Source: Chloroflexota bacterium
GTDB lineage: Bacteria > Chloroflexota > Anaerolineae > Anaerolineales > VGOW01
Assembly: GCA_016213135.1 (NCBI GenBank)
Contig: JACRBQ010000117.1
Span: 1 to 64,000 of the forward strand
Length of the DNA stretch: 64,000 nt
Direction: 5' to 3'
The translations under genes and the position numbers were made by a program. The notes under the pieces are model-generated. The model made no database searches. It was not told the origin of the DNA and worked only from the letters and a program-made list of their open reading frames with translations. Below, piece after piece: positions 5,833 through 63,971 of this stretch (its first letter is position 1; each line of letters starts with the position of its first letter).

Positions 5833-6285
5833 CTAGGCCTTGCCGGCCAGCAGTTCGCGGACGAGGTCGCTCACGGTCTTGCTGTCGGCCAGCCCTTTGA
5901 GCCGGGGCTGTAGGACTTTCATGACCTTGCCCATATCGCCGGGGCCGGCGGCGCCCACTTCAGCGATGGCCGCCGAAACCTGCGCGGCCACTTCGTCGCG
6001 GCTGAGTTGCCGGGGCAGAAATGATTCGAGGATGGCCGAGGTGGCCTGGGCTTTGGCAGTCAGGTCGGGGCGGTTGGCCTTTTCCGCGTCGGCCAGGGCC
6101 TCCCGCTGCGACTTGATTTCTTTGTTGATCACGGCCAGCACGTCGGCATCGTCCAGGCCCTGGCGTTTGTCCACGGCGGCCAGCTTGATGCCGGCAATGA
6201 TGCTGCGCAAGGCGGTTTTGCGCGTTTCATCGCCGGAGCGCAAGGCGTTCTTCAGTTCGGTTTCGATGGTTTCTTTGAGTGACAT
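5833..6285 (-). CDS. yqeY: GatB/YqeY domain protein
   Basis: About 150 residues and entirely helical, matching YqeY proteins, which resemble the tRNA-binding tail domain of the amidotransferase subunit GatB. The signature regions LKNALRSGDETRKTALR, GPGDMGKVMKVLQPRLKG and the final DLVRELL are present. I place the start at the ATG at 6285 (MSLKETIETELK). The longer upstream reading lacks family similarity, and a -10 box (6293-6298 on the minus strand) lies 7 bases before this ATG, which predicts a leaderless mRNA. The cellular role of YqeY is still vague; an effect on tRNA amidation or handling is inferred from the GatB likeness. Confidence 0.92.
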   Translation of the reverse strand: MSLKETIETELKNALRSGDETRKTALRSIIAGIKLAAVDKRQGLDDADVLAVINKEIKSQREALADAEKANRPDLTAKAQATSAILESFLPRQLSRDEVAAQVSAAIAEVGAAGPGDMGKVMKVLQPRLKGLADSKTVSDLVRELLAGKA

Positions 6286-6292
6286 GTCGAGG

Positions 6293-6298
6293 ATTATA
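6293..6298 (-). promoter_or_regulatory. -10 box of yqeY, leaderless
   Basis: TATAAT on the minus strand, with 7 bases between it and the yqeY ATG. Transcription would begin at or beside the start codon. No good -35 is visible. Confidence 0.6.
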
Positions 6299-8028: not shown

Positions 8029-9471
8029 TCAGGGCAGCGTGCCAAGGCGGGCCATCGCCTGCAAGGCCGCAGTGGCGATCGGCGTCCCCGCGCCAAGGGC
8101 CACGGCGGCGTCCAGCGCAGTTTTGGCCTGGGTAGGGCGGTTGGTATCCAGGTAGAGCAATCCCAAATGAAACTGAATGCGGGCCGAACGCGGGTCGAGG
8201 GATTGGGCTTTGAGTAATGCCGGCTCGGCCAGGTCAACGTGTCCGTTGAGGTATTCGGCGAAGCCGAGGACATCCTGCGCGGCGGCGGAGTCGGGCGCGA
8301 GGGTGGCGGCTTGTTCGGCGGCGCGGATGCCATCCTGATCCACTTTGAGATCGTGATCCAAATAGAATTGCGCCAGCAGCGTCCAGAATGAGGCGTCGGT
8401 GGGCGCGGCGAGCACGGCTTGCGAATACCAATTCTCGGCGTTGGCGAGATCGGCTGTTTCGGTGTACGCGCTGCCCAACTCGGCGGCGGCGGCGGCGTTG
8501 GTCTTGTCCAGTTTGAACGCCAACTCAAGCTCGGCAATGGCCTGCTGGTTTTGTTGAAGGCGGCGATAGTGCAGGCCGAGCAGGTAATGGATGAGCGAGC
8601 GCGAAGGGGTGTTCAACTGAACGCCCGTACCCTCGAGGTCGATGGCGCGTTGATAGGCGTACAGGCCGTCGTTGCCGAGCCGGTCTTCGGCCAGACCCAG
8701 GTAGGCGTAGGCCTCGGCAAACGAGGGCCGCTGCTGCACGGCGTTGAGCAACACCGCTTTGGCGAGTTTGTATTCCTGCAGGCTGATGAGAGTGTAACCC
8801 ACGACGCCGGAAAGATCGGCAGGGTCTTTGGCGTCAAGCCCGGCGCTGATGGTCTGATTGAGGCTTTCGGCGAACGGTTTGACGCTGGCATCCAGGGCCG
8901 CGGCCAGCATGAGGTGGGCAGGCGCGGCGGCGGGGTTAGTTACCGACAGCAGCACCCCCAGCCGGTATTGGGCGACGGCGTTGTCCGGGTTCACGGCGAC
9001 GAGTGCTTGCAGAGCGGTTTGAGCCTGGGAATACTGCTCCTGCGTTTCGTAGGCTATGGCCAGTTTGGTGAGCAGGGCCGCGTTGGCGGGGTCGGCGGCG
9101 AGGGCTTGTTGCCAGTGGTCTATGGCCGAGGGTATGTCACCCAGACCCTGATAGCTATCGCCCATGGCCGAGTGGAGGCGTGCGCTCCAGCCTTTGAGGG
9201 CCGCGGCCCGTTGCAGGGTCACTTGCGCGGCGGCATATTGGCCGGTAGCCAGGGCGGCTAACCCCGCCGACTCAGCCCGATCTGGTTGCCACGGTTGGCG
9301 GTTGTAGGCATCCACAATGGCGGTGAGCGACTGCGGCGTGAGGCTGGACGACTGGCGGGCAATGCGCAGATCGTTGAGCAGCGGCAGCCAGTTGGGTTGG
9401 ATGCCGAGGAGCAAGACGACGAGGGCAGCGAGCGCGAGGCGGGCGGAGGGGTGGCGAAAAGCTTGAGGCAC
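8029..9471 (-). CDS. Membrane-anchored TPR repeat protein
   Basis: A 480-residue protein with one N-terminal transmembrane or signal segment (about 10-28) and a series of tetratricopeptide repeats from about 70 to the end (for example AIDHWQQALAADPANAALLTKLA and AIAELELAFKLDKTNAAAAAELG, read as spaced helices). TPR arrays act as protein-binding scaffolds. The partner here is unknown, but the two lipoproteins just downstream suggest an envelope role. The start is the GTG at 9471. A TATAAT box lies 7 bases before it, so the mRNA is predicted to be leaderless. Confidence 0.85.
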   Translation of the reverse strand: MPQAFRHPSARLALAALVVLLLGIQPNWLPLLNDLRIARQSSSLTPQSLTAIVDAYNRQPWQPDRAESAGLAALATGQYAAAQVTLQRAAALKGWSARLHSAMGDSYQGLGDIPSAIDHWQQALAADPANAALLTKLAIAYETQEQYSQAQTALQALVAVNPDNAVAQYRLGVLLSVTNPAAAPAHLMLAAALDASVKPFAESLNQTISAGLDAKDPADLSGVVGYTLISLQEYKLAKAVLLNAVQQRPSFAEAYAYLGLAEDRLGNDGLYAYQRAIDLEGTGVQLNTPSRSLIHYLLGLHYRRLQQNQQAIAELELAFKLDKTNAAAAAELGSAYTETADLANAENWYSQAVLAAPTDASFWTLLAQFYLDHDLKVDQDGIRAAEQAATLAPDSAAAQDVLGFAEYLNGHVDLAEPALLKAQSLDPRSARIQFHLGLLYLDTNRPTQAKTALDAAVALGAGTPIATAALQAMARLGTLP

Positions 9472-9478
9472 GACACGT

Positions 9479-9484
9479 ATTATA
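9479..9484 (-). promoter_or_regulatory. -10 box of TPR gene (leaderless)
   Basis: TATAAT on the minus strand with an extended TGG before it. Seven bases separate it from the GTG start at 9471. Confidence 0.6.
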
Positions 9485-9493
9485 CCAATGGGC

Positions 9494-18150: not shown

Positions 18151-18360
18151 CTACCCTGCCTCGCGGATTGCCTCCAACGCAATCCCCGCCGCCCGCCGCA
18201 CTTCGGCGGCATACTCCTCGTCGTCGGCCATCTTTTTCAATTGCGCCGCCACTGCGCGCGCTTCGTCGTCGGTCAGGTCGCCCCACGCGCGGCGAATCTG
18301 CCCCGGGTTTTCGGAGAGCAGCGCAGCCCACAGAGCTTCGACATCGTTGGAAGATTCCAT
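18151..18360 (-). CDS. Small helical hypothetical protein
   Basis: I do not recognise this family. The 69-residue product (from MESSNDVEALWAALL) is acidic, Ala-rich and fully helical, with regular spacing of hydrophobic residues, no signal peptide and no cysteine. It has coding-like composition and fills the gap between the heptamer array and the cytochrome gene. It could be the last gene of the minus-strand redox operon, since only 34 bases separate it from the cytochrome stop. No ribosome site is obvious. Confidence 0.55.
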   Translation of the reverse strand: MESSNDVEALWAALLSENPGQIRRAWGDLTDDEARAVAAQLKKMADDEEYAAEVRRAAGIALEAIREAG

Positions 18361-18394
18361 TCCGGGAAGTATACCCGCACGCACCGGGCGGCGC

Positions 18395-35348: not shown

Positions 35349-35374
35349 CGCGCGGCGCGCTTGTCCCCGTGTGA

Positions 35375-35380
35375 TAGAAT
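35375..35380 (+). promoter_or_regulatory. -10 box of LCP gene, leaderless
   Basis: TAGAAT with an extended TGA, 8 bases before the ATG at 35389. No -35 is visible. Confidence 0.6.
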
Positions 35381-35388
35381 CCCGCGAT

Positions 35389-36597
35389 ATGCGTTTCTCC
35401 AAACAGATCAAGCCGCCGGCTAGGAATCCACTGGGGATACTGGCAGTCGTTTTCGTCGCGTTCGGTGGCGTCATGGTGGCGCTCACTGCCTTTGCACTCC
35501 TCACCAGGCAAACTCGCGCCGACCAATACCCGGCCACAATGGTGATCAGCCTGCCGGCTGCGGCAGAGACCGTTGAGCCGTTGAGGCCCACGCCCGCCAC
35601 GCTGGCGGCGTTGATCAGTGCCCCGTCGCAGTCGGTCACGCCTACCAGTAGCGACCCGCGACCGCCTACTTCCACGCCCACGCCGGCGCTGCGGCCCACC
35701 GGCTACTATGTGGCCCCGCTGAATCCAACGCCCATCCCCACTCCGGAACTGCCGCCTGCCGCGCCGTTCCCCGCTTCGTGCGACGGGCCGGGCCGCATGA
35801 ACATCCTCGTCATCGGCATGGACGGGCGCTCCGCCAATTACGACCGCGCCGCCCGCGCCGATGCCCTGGCGGTGATCGGCGTGAACTTCGGCGACCGCTC
35901 GGCGCAAATCCTGTCCATTCCGCGCGACCTGTGGGTGCAGATTCCGGCCTACGGCACGCAGCCCACGCAAGAGAATCGAATCAACACCGGCTACGCGCTG
36001 GCGGGAAGCTATGGCTACCCCGGCGGCGGCGCGGCGTTTCAGGCCTATGTGATTTCGCAGACGTTCGGCTTGCGGATCGACCGCGCCATGGTGCTAAACT
36101 TCACGGCGTTCGAGAGCGCCATTGACACCATTGGCGGCGTGGATATTAACGTGACAACGGCGGTGCACGATCCCAGGTATCCCGACGATCAGGGCGGCAC
36201 GCTCGTGCTCGAAATCCCCGCCGGGCTGGTGCACATGGATGGGCGCACCGCGCTCATGTATGCGCGCACGCGGCACGCCGACAGCGACTTTGGCCGCATG
36301 CGCCGCCAGCAAAAAGTGCTTATGGCCGTGCGCGACAAGTTGCTCACGCCGGAATCACTACTCGTGCTGCCCTCACTGGTTCAGCTTATCTATCAGTCAG
36401 TCAGCACCGATCTCAGCCTGGACGATGTGGGCCTGCTGGGGTGCGTCGGCCCGCAAATCCCGCGCGAGTCCATTACCCAGATTGTCATCGACTCCACGAT
36501 GACCACGTCGTTTGTGGCGACGAGCGGCGCGCAAGTGCTGCTGCCAAAAATGGACCTCATCACGCCGCTGTTGGCCGCGTTCAATACCGGGCAATAG
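35389..36597 (+). CDS. LytR-CpsA-Psr family protein
   Basis: 402 residues: one transmembrane anchor (about 17-38), a Pro/Thr linker to about 130, and an LCP domain with NILVIGMDGRS, ADALAVIGVNF, LSIPRDLWV (Arg-Asp pair), INTGYALAG and YARTRHADSDFGRMRRQQKVL. LCP enzymes attach polyprenyl-linked glycans to the cell envelope. It is divergent neither from nor clearly coupled to DUF512, and a -10 box sits 8 bases before its ATG, so it has its own leaderless transcript. It converges on IPK with 2 bases between stops. Confidence 0.93.
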   Translation: MRFSKQIKPPARNPLGILAVVFVAFGGVMVALTAFALLTRQTRADQYPATMVISLPAAAETVEPLRPTPATLAALISAPSQSVTPTSSDPRPPTSTPTPALRPTGYYVAPLNPTPIPTPELPPAAPFPASCDGPGRMNILVIGMDGRSANYDRAARADALAVIGVNFGDRSAQILSIPRDLWVQIPAYGTQPTQENRINTGYALAGSYGYPGGGAAFQAYVISQTFGLRIDRAMVLNFTAFESAIDTIGGVDINVTTAVHDPRYPDDQGGTLVLEIPAGLVHMDGRTALMYARTRHADSDFGRMRRQQKVLMAVRDKLLTPESLLVLPSLVQLIYQSVSTDLSLDDVGLLGCVGPQIPRESITQIVIDSTMTTSFVATSGAQVLLPKMDLITPLLAAFNTGQ

Positions 36598-38398: not shown

Positions 38399-39267
38399 CG
38401 GCTAAAGTACAGCACCCCCACCGCCGCCAGCCCCCACAGCAAAAAGGTCGCCAGCAGCGGCTTGTCCTTCAGCACCAACTCATCGGGCGCGCCGCCCTCG
38501 TGCCGCACGTGAATGAGAAACAGATAGCGGAAGACGCCGTACAGCACGAACGGCGTCGTGAGCATCATCGCGTGATTCTTCGGCAGGTTCTCCGCCGAGA
38601 AAGTGTAGAACGTATACGCCACCACGGTGGCGGTCGACACAATGCTGATGAGTTGGTCGATGAGCTGCAAATTGTAGTTCGCCAGCACCGAGCGATGGTT
38701 GTTGGCGTTATCGGTCAGCAGCGTAATCTCGCGGCGGCGCTTGCCCAGCACCATGAACAGCGCCAGCAGAGTCATGCACACGTACAGCCACGGCGAAAAC
38801 CGTACCACGTCCACCAGCGCCACCCCGGCGCTCACCCGCAGCACGAACCCGGCGGCCACCACCAGCACATCGACAATCACCACGTTTTTCAGCCAGAAGC
38901 TGTAAAGCACGTTGAAAGCAAAATACAGCAGCACCAGCGCCGCGAACTGCTTGTCTAGTATGAACGCGCCGCCCAGCGCCGCGGCCACCAGCGCAATGGC
39001 GGCCGCAATCGCCGCCCCTTTGGACAACGTGCCCGCCGCCAGCGGCCGCGACCGTTTGGTTGGGTGTTGCCGATCCTTCTCGATATCCACCAGATCGTTG
39101 ATGATATACACTGCGCTGCTCAGCAGGCACAGCAGCACAAACGCCGTCATCGTCCGGCCCAGGTAGTAGGGCTGAGTCAGCTTCACGTCGAACACCAGCG
39201 CGGCGAACACCACGGCGTTCTTCGTCCACTGTTGGGGTCGCATGGTTTTGAGGAGAGGGAGAATCAT
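38395..39267 (-). CDS. UbiA-family prenyltransferase (decaprenyl-phosphate phosphoribosyltransferase type)
   Basis: 290 residues and about eight transmembrane helices. The first Asp-rich motif NDLVDIEKDRQHPTKRSRPLA is intact and the second helix loop ALFMVLGKRRRE fits the Rv3806c-like branch, which moves phosphoribose to decaprenyl phosphate. A general prenyltransferase is the fallback. Promoter: TATAAT 7 bases before the ATG, shared back to back with tlyA. It heads the operon UbiA-mevalonate kinase-IPK. Confidence 0.9.
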   Translation of the reverse strand: MILPLLKTMRPQQWTKNAVVFAALVFDVKLTQPYYLGRTMTAFVLLCLLSSAVYIINDLVDIEKDRQHPTKRSRPLAAGTLSKGAAIAAAIALVAAALGGAFILDKQFAALVLLYFAFNVLYSFWLKNVVIVDVLVVAAGFVLRVSAGVALVDVVRFSPWLYVCMTLLALFMVLGKRRREITLLTDNANNHRSVLANYNLQLIDQLISIVSTATVVAYTFYTFSAENLPKNHAMMLTTPFVLYGVFRYLFLIHVRHEGGAPDELVLKDKPLLATFLLWGLAAVGVLYFSR

Positions 39268-39274
39268 GCCCGGT

Positions 39275-39282
39275 ATTATAAT
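39275..39282. promoter_or_regulatory. Bidirectional -10 element (ATTATAAT) for UbiA and tlyA
   Basis: A palindromic ATTATAAT gives TATAAT on both strands. The plus-strand box (39277-39282) lies 8 bases before the tlyA GTG, and the minus-strand box (39275-39280) lies 7 bases before the UbiA ATG. Both mRNAs would be leaderless, and RNA polymerase could not occupy both at once. Confidence 0.68.
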
Positions 39283-39290
39283 CGTCTCTT

Positions 39291-40079
39291 GTGACCAGGC
39301 CGCATAAACCCCCCGCGCGTCTCCGGCTCGACGCCGCCCTCCTCGAGCGCGGACTCGTCGAGTCTCGCGAAAAAGGCCGCCGCCTGATCATGGCCGGCGA
39401 GGTGCGGGTGAACGGCCAACTGGTGGATAAGCCCGGCGCGCCCGTGCCCGCCGACGCGGCCATTGAATTGAAGGCCGCGCCGCCGTTCGTCAGCCGCGGC
39501 GGCCAAAAACTCGCCGCCGCACTGGATGGTTTCCATCTCGACGTGGGCGGCTTTGTTTGCGCCGACGTGGGCGCGTCCACCGGCGGCTTCACCGATTGCC
39601 TGCTGCAGCGCGGCGCGGCAAAAGTGTACGCCCTCGACGTGGGTAAGGGCATCCTCGATTGGCGGCTGCGCAACGACCCCCGAGTCATTCTCATGGAGGA
39701 GACCAACGCCCGCTACGTGGCCTCGTTGCCCGAACCTCTGCACCTGGTCACCGTTGACGCTTCCTTCATTTCCCTGCGGTTGCTGTTGCCGGTGGCCCGG
39801 CGGTGGCTCGCCCCCGGCGGCACAATTGTTGCCCTCATCAAACCGCAGTTCGAGGCCGGGCGCGACCGCCTCGGCAAAGGCGGCGTGGTGCGCGACCCCG
39901 CCGTTCACCGCGCCGTGTTGACTGAAGTGCTGTCGTTTGCCGAAACATTGAAGTTGCACACCCACGGCCTCATCCGCTCGCCCCAGCTCGGCCCGGCCGG
40001 CAACGTGGAATTTCTGGCGTGGCTGGCCGAGGGGCAGAGGGCGCAGAGCGTCGAGGCCTGGGTGGCCGGAATTGGCTAA
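39291..40079 (+). CDS. tlyA: TlyA family rRNA (cytidine-2'-O)-methyltransferase
   Basis: 262 residues: an N-terminal S4 domain (RLDAALLERGLVESREKGRRLIMAGEVRVNG) and an FtsJ-like methyltransferase domain with VSRGGQKLAAALDGF, CADVGASTGGFTDCLLQRGA (SAM site), TVDASFISL and LIKPQFEAGRDRLGKGG. TlyA methylates 16S and 23S rRNA. The start is a GTG at 39291 with a -10 box just before it. It leads the plus-strand run with the DUF2207 cluster downstream. Confidence 0.93.
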   Translation: MTRPHKPPARLRLDAALLERGLVESREKGRRLIMAGEVRVNGQLVDKPGAPVPADAAIELKAAPPFVSRGGQKLAAALDGFHLDVGGFVCADVGASTGGFTDCLLQRGAAKVYALDVGKGILDWRLRNDPRVILMEETNARYVASLPEPLHLVTVDASFISLRLLLPVARRWLAPGGTIVALIKPQFEAGRDRLGKGGVVRDPAVHRAVLTEVLSFAETLKLHTHGLIRSPQLGPAGNVEFLAWLAEGQRAQSVEAWVAGIG

Positions 40080-61392: not shown

Positions 61393-61420
61393 CTGACAAC
61401 CCACCGTTCGGTGCTACACT
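61393..61420 (+). promoter_or_regulatory. Promoter of phosphodiesterase gene, leaderless
   Basis: CTGACA (61393-61398), 16 bases, then TACACT (61415-61420) with an extended TGC. The ATG at 61427 comes 6 bases later. Confidence 0.68.
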
Positions 61421-61426
61421 CTTGGA

Positions 61427-62395
61427 ATGCGCCACTTCTTCTGCGCCTTCGCCCTGTTGCTGTGCGCCTGCGCCTCGGCCACGCCACCGGCGCCGCCACC
61501 TTTGGATACAGCGATACCCACGGCGACCCCGACGGAAACGGCGTCCCCCGCGCCGCCGCTCACGGCAACCGCGCTGCCGACTTCGACCACGCCGCCCACG
61601 GCGACGATGCGCCCCCCGCCGCCGAAGGTTCTCATCATCTCCATTGACGGCCTGCGACCCGACGCGCTGCTGAAGGCCGACGCGCCCAACATCATGGCGC
61701 TGGCGCATCGCGGCGCGTACACATGGAGCGCGCAGACGATTTATCCGGCGGTGACGCTGCCCGCGCACGCCTCGATGCTCACGGGCTACCCGCCGGAGGC
61801 GCACGGCATTTTGTGGAACGACAATGCGCCGGGGCACGCGCCCATTAAGGCGCCGACGATTTTTTCGGCGGCGCACGCGGCGGGCTTGCGCACGGTGATG
61901 GTGGTGGGCAAACAGAAGCTGGAGCAGTTGGATATTCCCGGCACGGTGGACTCGTACGTCTTTGCCAGGTTTGGCGACCCCGGTGTGGCCGACGCGGCCA
62001 TTGAGGAAATTGGCAAAGGGTTCGATTTGATGTTTGTGCATTTGCCGAACACGGATTACTTTGGGCACACCGATGGCTGGATGTCACCAGCGTACATTGC
62101 CGAGTTGACGCCCACTGATGCGGCCGTGGGGCGCATCCTCGCTGCCTTGCCGCCGGATACGATTGTGATCCTCACTGCCGATCACGGCGGCCACGACAAA
62201 GTGCACGGCGCGCGCATTGCGGTGGACATGACCATTCCGTGGATCATCGCCGGGCCGGGCGTGTCCGCCGACCACGAGATTGCCGCGCCCGTGAATACGA
62301 TGGACACGGCGGCGACTGCGGCGTACGTGCTTGGCTTAACCCTGCCGCCGGATGCGGCGGGCGCGCCGGTGCTTGAGGCGTTGGGTAGTCCGTAG
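61427..62395 (+). CDS. Lipoprotein-type alkaline phosphatase superfamily phosphodiesterase
   Basis: 322 residues. A signal peptide ends LLCAC, a Thr/Pro linker runs to about 66, and the enzyme core shows LIISIDGLRPDAL, TLPAHASMLTG (nucleophile Thr), HLPNTDYFGHTDG and ILTADHGGHDKVHG. These metal-binding motifs match type I phosphodiesterase/nucleotide pyrophosphatases, which act outside the cell. It is somewhat short for the family. The TAG stop is in a GTAGAGGCGTTGC remnant like the 6370 palindrome. Confidence 0.92.
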   Translation: MRHFFCAFALLLCACASATPPAPPPLDTAIPTATPTETASPAPPLTATALPTSTTPPTATMRPPPPKVLIISIDGLRPDALLKADAPNIMALAHRGAYTWSAQTIYPAVTLPAHASMLTGYPPEAHGILWNDNAPGHAPIKAPTIFSAAHAAGLRTVMVVGKQKLEQLDIPGTVDSYVFARFGDPGVADAAIEEIGKGFDLMFVHLPNTDYFGHTDGWMSPAYIAELTPTDAAVGRILAALPPDTIVILTADHGGHDKVHGARIAVDMTIPWIIAGPGVSADHEIAAPVNTMDTAATAAYVLGLTLPPDAAGAPVLEALGSP

Positions 62396-62434
62396 AGGCG
62401 TTGCAGCGTCCCGGCCCACTGCGCCTCGGCGTGC

Positions 62435-62440
62435 TATACT
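62435..62440 (+). promoter_or_regulatory. -10 box of SARP gene, leaderless
   Basis: TATACT with an extended TGC, 7 bases before the ATG at 62448. Confidence 0.65.
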
Positions 62441-62447
62441 TCGTTTC

Positions 62448-63971
62448 ATGCTCTCGGTGTTATTGCTTGGCGAACCGCAGTTGCTGCTCGACGGCCGGCG
62501 CCTGAACATCACGCGCCGCAAAAGCCGCGCGCTCCTCTACACTCTCGCCGCCCGCGCTCAACCGCTCAGCCGCGACACGCTGCTGGCGTTGTTTTGGCCG
62601 GACCTCGACCGCGCCTCGGCACAGCAAACCCTGCGCACCACACTGCACGGATTGCGCAAGAGTCTCGCCTCGGCAATCTCCACCGACGACAACCACATTA
62701 GGTTGGCCGCCGACACCGACGTGGACGTTCGCCGTTTTGAATCGGCCCTTGCCGCACCCTCGCCCGATATCCAGTCACTCGCCGCCACGCTGGCCCTCTA
62801 CCGTGGCGACTTTCTTTCCGGCTTCAGCCTGCCCGACGCGCCCGAGTTCGAAGATTGGCTCGGCGGCGAGCGCGAGCGCTACAGGCGGCTGGCGGTGCGC
62901 GGGCTGAGCACGTTGGCGCGGCTGAACGAGGCGCGGCGCGATTACGCCGCTGCGCTCGACGCACTGGACCGCGCGCTGGCCTTTAACGCCTTGCAGGAGG
63001 ATTTGCAGCGCGACTGCATTCGTCTGCATTATCTGGCGGGCGATAGGGCAGGGGCGATTCGTCGCTACGACACACTGCGCAAATTACTGGACGAAGAAAT
63101 GGGCGTGCCGCCCATGGCCGAAACGCGCGCCGTGTATGACGCCATCATTAGCGACCGCGCCACCGACCTAAGCGGTCCACAGGCGGGGGCCTCGCACGTT
63201 GCACAACCCTTTCCGTTCTCGCCGGAGAACCACCTGCCCGCCGCCGACCTACCGTTTACGGGCCGCGCCGGCGAACTGCGCTCGCTACGCGAGATGCTGT
63301 CGGCTCGGGGACACGTGTTGGCAATTGTCGAAGGCGAACCGGGCATCGGCAAATCGCGGCTGGTGGGCGAATTCATTCGCGCCTCCAACGCCCTTGCGCT
63401 CACGGGCGCGGCGCACGAACTGGAGCACGGCCTCCCCTATCTGCCGATCATCGAGGCTTTGCGCAGTTTGCAGTCGCGCCCCGATTGGCCTGCCCTGCGC
63501 GCCGAGGTACGCGCCCACGTGCCGCCGGTGTGGCTGGCTCAAGCCGACCGGCTGTTGCCCGAACTGGAAATTGCGGACCCGGTGATGGGGCAGGCCGCGG
63601 CCTCGCCCGATGAATCGCGGCTGTGGGAGGGCATCAGCCACTTGCTATTGGGATTGGCGAGACAACACCCTGTCGTCCTGTTTATAGATGATCTGCACTG
63701 GGCCGACTCGTCCACATTGGCTCTGCTGGGCTACCTGGTTCGTCGGGGAACCGCAGCGCCACTGCTGTGCCTGGCTGCTGTGCGGCCCGTTGCGCCCCGG
63801 TCGTCTCTGGCGGCGTTGCTGCAAACCCTCACCCGCGAAGACCGACTCTTGCGGCTGCCGCTGCCGCGCTTGACCGCAGACGACATTTCACGCATCGCCG
63901 AACGCATCAGCCCCGCCTTTGCCGTGCCGCTGGCCCTCTGGCTTGCTCCGGCTTCCGAAGGCAACCCCTAG
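62448..63971 (+). CDS. SARP/BTAD transcriptional activator with AAA ATPase, interrupted by amber codon, partial
   Basis: Residues 1-100 form a winged-helix SARP-type DNA-binding domain (ALLYTLAARAQPLSRDTLLALFWPD in spaced helices), 105-245 a BTAD helical domain, and from about 265 a STAND-type ATPase with FTGRAGELRSL, Walker A EGEPGIGKSRLVG and VVLFIDDLHWAD. At 63969-63971 an in-frame TAG cuts the conserved EGNP-x-x-x-EL motif; after it the frame reads VLAELIRHA to the window end, as expected for the intact family. The gene thus continues past the stop and past 64000. It may be a nonsense mutation, a sequence error or recoding. Confidence 0.78.
   Translation: MLSVLLLGEPQLLLDGRRLNITRRKSRALLYTLAARAQPLSRDTLLALFWPDLDRASAQQTLRTTLHGLRKSLASAISTDDNHIRLAADTDVDVRRFESALAAPSPDIQSLAATLALYRGDFLSGFSLPDAPEFEDWLGGERERYRRLAVRGLSTLARLNEARRDYAAALDALDRALAFNALQEDLQRDCIRLHYLAGDRAGAIRRYDTLRKLLDEEMGVPPMAETRAVYDAIISDRATDLSGPQAGASHVAQPFPFSPENHLPAADLPFTGRAGELRSLREMLSARGHVLAIVEGEPGIGKSRLVGEFIRASNALALTGAAHELEHGLPYLPIIEALRSLQSRPDWPALRAEVRAHVPPVWLAQADRLLPELEIADPVMGQAAASPDESRLWEGISHLLLGLARQHPVVLFIDDLHWADSSTLALLGYLVRRGTAAPLLCLAAVRPVAPRSSLAALLQTLTREDRLLRLPLPRLTADDISRIAERISPAFAVPLALWLAPASEGNP

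Follow-up and report, generated by a model that had tools for sequence, protein, structure and literature searches.

Known systems with -10 elements close to start codons

Leaderless mRNAs are translated by a 70S/IF2-type route. The same route is stated for them in the accessible parts of PMC10783764 and PMC12340547. The latter concerns Deinococcus-Thermus, which resembles the DNA described here in having a -10 element a few bp before the open reading frame (ORF), leaderless mRNA, little need of a -35 element, and a parallel Shine-Dalgarno (SD) mode; Chloroflexi are not named in its main text, and a supplementary figure spans many phyla. The TA-led (leaderless) genes described in 2011 by Zheng et al. 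(PMC3160421) are similar as well, with TA-like signals ~10-12 bp upstream of starts; the Chloroflexi pattern is TAtaaT, reported in 4 of 12 genomes at a mean of 4.7% (4.0-5.7). Mycobacterium tuberculosis (PMC3898074) shares TANNNT -10 elements, the lack of a -35 motif, starts at both AUG and GUG, and closely juxtaposed divergent promoters; its divergent pair prpD/Rv1129c is leaderless on both sides.

A further parallel is found in bidirectional promoters with a symmetric -10 element, where a common -10 is read both ways (PMC10268837, PMC12825309). By definition their divergent starts lie 7-25 bp apart (PMC10268837), and in five tested E. coli pairs they were 10-23 bp apart (PMC10268837, PMC12825309); neither paper uses the word "leaderless" in its main text. 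Among open-licence PubMed Central papers, no dedicated study of leaderless genes in Anaerolineae or Chloroflexota was found.

Boxed genes in the window

The window (the whole stretch of 64,000 nt that was analyzed) comprises positions 1-64000 of one contig of a 3.84-Mb, 147-contig genome; GC content is ~63%. Among named relatives, its yqeY comes closest to those of Chloroflexi/Anaerolineales metagenome-assembled genomes, with a best identity of 70%. An earlier note on this DNA had listed seven genes with a TATAAT-like box 6-8 nt before an ATG or GTG, and all seven boxes are found where it had put them. They are given here with an eighth candidate and a site common to two genes; gene names in the window were checked with Pfam.

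6283..6298, minus strand: yqeY (Pfam YqeY); TATAAT at 6293-6298, 7-nt spacer, ATG at 6285-6283
9469..9487, minus strand: TPR gene (sequence and Pfam); TGG TATAAT, 7-nt spacer, GTG at 9471
18358..18373, minus strand: eighth candidate, 69-codon ORF at 18151-18360 (sequence); TATACT, 7-nt spacer, ATG at 18360
35372..35391, plus strand: LCP gene (sequence and Pfam); TGA TAGAAT, 8-nt spacer, ATG at 35389
39265..39293, both strands: predicted common promoter of UbiA (minus) and TlyA (plus); palindrome ATTATAAT at 39275-39282
Half of 39265..39293, minus strand: UbiA (sequence and Pfam); TATAAT, 7-nt spacer, ATG at 39267
Other half of 39265..39293, plus strand: TlyA, FtsJ domain (sequence and Pfam); TATAAT, 8-nt spacer, GTG at 39291
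61412..61429, plus strand: phosphodiesterase (sequence and Pfam); TGC TACACT, 6-nt spacer, ATG at 61427
62432..62450, plus strand: SARP-type regulator (sequence and Pfam); TGC TATACT, 7-nt spacer, ATG at 62448

As had been claimed, none of the seven genes listed earlier has an SD core. The "several" boxes said to be extended by TGn turn out to be four (TPR, LCP, phosphodiesterase, and SARP; not yqeY, UbiA, or TlyA). The phosphodiesterase box is the weakest of the seven, with two mismatches. The minus-strand ORF starting at 18360 is absent from the earlier list; congener G321 has an ORF 58.6% identical to it, in which GTGTAAAAT precedes by 7 nt an ATG that lies 9 nt downstream from the aligned start.

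Genes were called with a codon model blind to upstream signals (61 genes in the window; 792 in a sample of 55 stretches totaling 896 kb, the window counted in). For LCP, TlyA, and the phosphodiesterase, the boxed start lies 84-180 nt upstream of the one picked by the caller. The upstream start of TlyA is favored by the tlyA orthologs of the order, most of which are also boxed at an upstream in-frame start, and that of LCP by a congener protein that aligns from residue 1 and has a box of its own. With starts refined, 55 of the 792 sampled genes have a strong box, and in 12 of these 55 the start differs from the caller's choice.

The boxes are very probably sigma-A-type promoter -10 elements that directly adjoin the coding sequence and yield leaderless mRNAs. 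The hexamer and its 6-8 nt spacing (7 being the mode) fit a housekeeping-sigma -10 with its start point on the start codon, and so do the many cases of G at -14 and the lack of a strong -35. On this model the box would serve as a housekeeping-sigma -10 element, in many cases preceded by TGn or by a G at -14, and with only a weak -35; polymerase would start on the first base of the ATG or GTG, 6-8 bp beyond the box; the mRNA would have no leader and begin with AUG or GUG; and the ribosome would recognize this 5′-terminal start codon without an SD. At the palindromic ATTATAAT, polymerase might bind either way round and so transcribe either gene as a leaderless mRNA. We infer where the transcript begins, which sigma factor is involved, and that translation follows the 70S/IF2-type route.

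Conservation in relatives

Of 80 yqeY loci, 37 were left out of the comparison (mostly Pelagibacter, together with an unlabelled bacterium and others); the masked contigs L014 and L017 were excluded. An exact TATAAT stands 6-7 nt before the ATG in 19 of 24 Chloroflexota relatives, over protein identities of 41-70%, and in none of the 19 rows from other phyla. The five Chloroflexota with a box-less yqeY are L077, L078, L079, L081, and L084. The genome-wide pattern was counted in four of these five genomes and is nonetheless in excess there; yqeY may be an operon-internal gene in them.

For tlyA and ubiA, several candidate starts were scored in each gene and the best was taken, with a score above 7. 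A box occurs at the aligned upstream start of tlyA in 18 of 29 rows (the other 11 have none at the threshold used), and in 15 of these 18 tlyA faces a divergent ubiA that is likewise boxed. Within the genus, the ubiA and tlyA boxes are each kept in both congeners, and those of yqeY and the TPR gene in G333, the sole congener in which they were found (its TPR gene starts with ATG). The LCP box is kept in one congener of two: G333 has TACAAT with a 7-nt spacer at the aligned start, and G321 has none. No box was seen at the G333 start of the phosphodiesterase; one was seen in G016 (L238).

At the genome level, a 301-genome survey included 25 members of the same order, each of which has at least about a twofold excess over its own reversed control. 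In 13 relatives' genomes, 76-201 matches compare with 26-62 at a shifted spacer, a ~2.3- to 5.5-fold difference. No excess over the shifted spacer was found in two Bacillota genomes, one of Nitrospinaceae, and one of Nitrospiraceae (927/971, 309/331, 38/37, and 118/125, respectively); one proteobacterial and one Nocardiopsis genome had too few matches for an excess to be judged. In a 200-kb sample of the complete genome G005, only 11 of 188 genes are boxed, and none of 105 in G189, which belongs to the same class and a different order.

Four further Chloroflexota genomes (G028, G080, G104, and G116) have the degenerate pattern TANNNTN{6,7}ATG at 2- to 4-fold over the reversed pattern, the sole control used. 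They may have leaderless genes with degenerate boxes, and are apparently GC-rich, judging from their low match counts. The survey with this pattern, over 121 genomes, is noisy, has the reversed control only, and supports no conclusion.

Apparently shared palindromic boxes between divergent genes

The ubiA and tlyA start codons are divergent and 23 bp apart, and ATTATAAT between them supplies TATAAT on both strands, 7 nt from the ubiA ATG and 8 nt from the tlyA GTG. The earlier note does not remark on this arrangement. In congener G321 the two genes are placed likewise, 21 bp apart. Other ubiA/tlyA pairs in the order have separate boxes, with gaps of 29-262 bp and, in one case, 1,023 bp.

The layout recurs at other genes. 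Of 151 genomes of the order, 64 contain the pattern CAYN{6,8}ATTATAATN{6,8}RTG, with 89 matches in all, against 18 for the reversed control (totals approximate). Among the 74 of these 89 that were read, ORFs of at least 100 codons lie on both sides at 29 sites, on one side at 33, and on neither at 12. The 29 two-sided sites represent 18 distinct gene pairs and have start-codon gaps of 20-24 bp. A mutL/HAD hydrolase pair occurs in five genomes from two families and a PRTase/PLD lipoprotein pair in five from a single genus; three further pairs, ubiA/tlyA included, are found in two genomes each. Ten sites were scanned for Pfam families, which were found on both sides in seven and on one side in three.

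It is possible, though not likely, that the box at such a palindrome is used by one gene only, the start codon on the other side being there by chance or its gene driven from elsewhere. The 33 sites with a long ORF on a single side are what chance CAY triplets would give, and ORF length is weak evidence here, as 2,232 of 9,500 random ATG/GTG triplets in these loci are open for at least 100 codons. Recurrence of the two-sided pairs speaks against this explanation (four of the 18 are found in 2, 2, 5, and 5 genomes, in addition to ubiA/tlyA in two), as do the Pfam families on both sides of seven of the ten scanned pairs.

On balance we lean toward the shared promoter: a single 8-bp ATTATAAT would be the whole promoter for both members of a divergent leaderless pair (ubiA/tlyA, mutL/HAD, PRTase/PLD lipoprotein, and others), with mutually exclusive orientations of polymerase leading to alternate expression, and an intergenic region of 20-24 bp holding neither leader nor ribosome-binding site. 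Gaps of this size around a symmetric -10 place the predicted transcript starts within the 7-25 bp spacing of bidirectional promoters.

Spacing, frequency, and gene placement across the genome

The earlier note had proposed as a check the genome-wide distribution of TATAAT distances to start codons. This has its peak at spacers of 6, 7, and 8 nt, where exact TATAAT precedes 6, 11, and 4 of 757 called starts, respectively, over a background of ~0.56 per position (896-kb sample). No peak occurs at these spacers for permuted and reversed hexamers at the same 757 starts. In the whole genome, TATAATN{6,8}ATG has 105 matches against four for the reversed pattern; at shifted spacers of 11-13 there are 14, against two in the reversed control. 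Strong boxes (score above 8) precede 43 of 775 called starts and 8 of 15,268 internal starts. In the window, strict boxes (TA...T with at most one mismatch to TATAAT, spacer 6-8) precede 7 of 212 candidate starts of the 61 genes, where 0.14 would be expected (Poisson P ~2e-10), a figure derived from 10 among 15,268 internal in-frame starts; with two mismatches allowed there are 10 window sites against 0.96 expected.

About 7% of sampled genes are boxed. An EM estimate gives 8.9% of genes at spacers 3-11 and 7.1% at spacers 6-8; EM on upstream-shifted windows also settles on unrelated weak motifs (15-21%), which makes the 8.9% an estimate rather than a test. Among 46 confidently boxed genes, TGn precedes the hexamer in 11 and G is at -14 in 25. 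A -35 element is weak: TTGACA with at least four matches was found in 7 of the 46, and in 2-3 of 46 at shifted positions. The spacers of these 46 are 6 nt in 13, 7 nt in 23, and 8 nt in 10.

This spread of spacers bears on the transcript start, since polymerase starting at a constant distance from the box would not hit the A of ATG exactly in every gene. The mRNAs might instead have very short leaders (1-5 nt), with start sites that shift by a few bases, and not be truly leaderless. Against this, 7 is the mode, and at bacterial promoters +1 sites vary across a few bases; we regard the short leaders as unlikely.

The SD findings are less simple than the earlier note had them. Box and SD are mutually exclusive: of the 46 confidently boxed genes one has an SD core, as compared with 235 among 639 others (P = 6e-8). 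The note's two coexisting modes of initiation are too simple a picture; they pass over a large class of leadered non-SD genes, 470 of the 757 sampled (62%) lacking both a strict box and an SD core. Miscalled starts account for some of these. The note's statement that genes inside operons have SD sites is borne out for 13 of the 33 window genes with a co-directional neighbor within 60 bp and fails for the rest; for divergent genes the figure is 3 of 10. The 16S rRNA 3′ end was searched for in the window's own assembly and not found. That of congener G333 terminates in GGATCACCTCCTTT, at the last position of the model, and the SD mode is therefore available in the genus. The two positions just ahead of the start codon (-1 and -2) favor C in the sampled genes (44-45%), equally in those with and without an SD.

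The large class with neither signal, together with the discussion of AT-rich non-SD upstream regions in the accessible part of PMC5397173, might suggest that promoters lie further upstream and that the AT-rich boxes aid translation (through low structure and S1 binding) rather than transcription. Low structure, however, needs no strict TATAAT at a fixed 6-8 nt, and would not explain why permuted and reversed hexamers have no peak. The boxes also cluster at divergently placed genes: they precede 27 of 124 of these but 5 of the 213 genes whose co-directional neighbor is no more than 20 bp away, and thus lie where transcription units begin. We consider a purely translational role very improbable. 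Chance occurrence of TATAAT near starts in AT-rich intergenic DNA has in its favor the mild enrichment at other upstream distances (the 14 matches at spacers 11-13 against two reversed) and may be dismissed, being ruled out by the spacing peak, the 105 matches against 14 at the shifted spacer, and the window Poisson test, and at odds with retention of the box across proteins 41-70% identical.

Comparison with known systems

Leaderless genes with an adjacent -10 are known (PMC3160421, PMC12340547, PMC3898074); the seven genes are therefore additional cases of a known phenomenon, in a little-studied clade. Leaderless initiation has been much studied in Actinobacteria and Deinococcus-Thermus, and has been put at ~5% in a few Chloroflexi. 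In Deinococcus-Thermus it is described for ~30% of ORFs with a degenerate TANNNT (PMC12340547), in contrast to ~7% in the present sample with a near-consensus TATAAT. Compared with the survey of Zheng et al., 2011 (PMC3160421), as far as its accessible text goes, the signal here is order-wide and conserved gene by gene, which would make the order a third bacterial test bed. The box signal also corrects gene starts.

The shared-palindrome pairs, as predicted from sequence, are the new element. No published case of one -10 common to two leaderless genes was found in open-licence PubMed Central papers. The M. tuberculosis case differs in that its starts were mapped (here they are predicted from the DNA), and the accessible part of PMC3898074 describes no -10 shared by two leaderless genes. 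In the symmetric promoters of PMC10268837 and PMC12825309, as far as their accessible text describes them, the common -10 is the same; what differs here is that both predicted starts, 21-25 bp apart, are start codons, and the whole intergenic region would thus be promoter. If the shared -10 works both ways, it would be about the smallest possible divergent gene-control region, and a natural setting in which competition between polymerases at a symmetric promoter could be cleanly tested.
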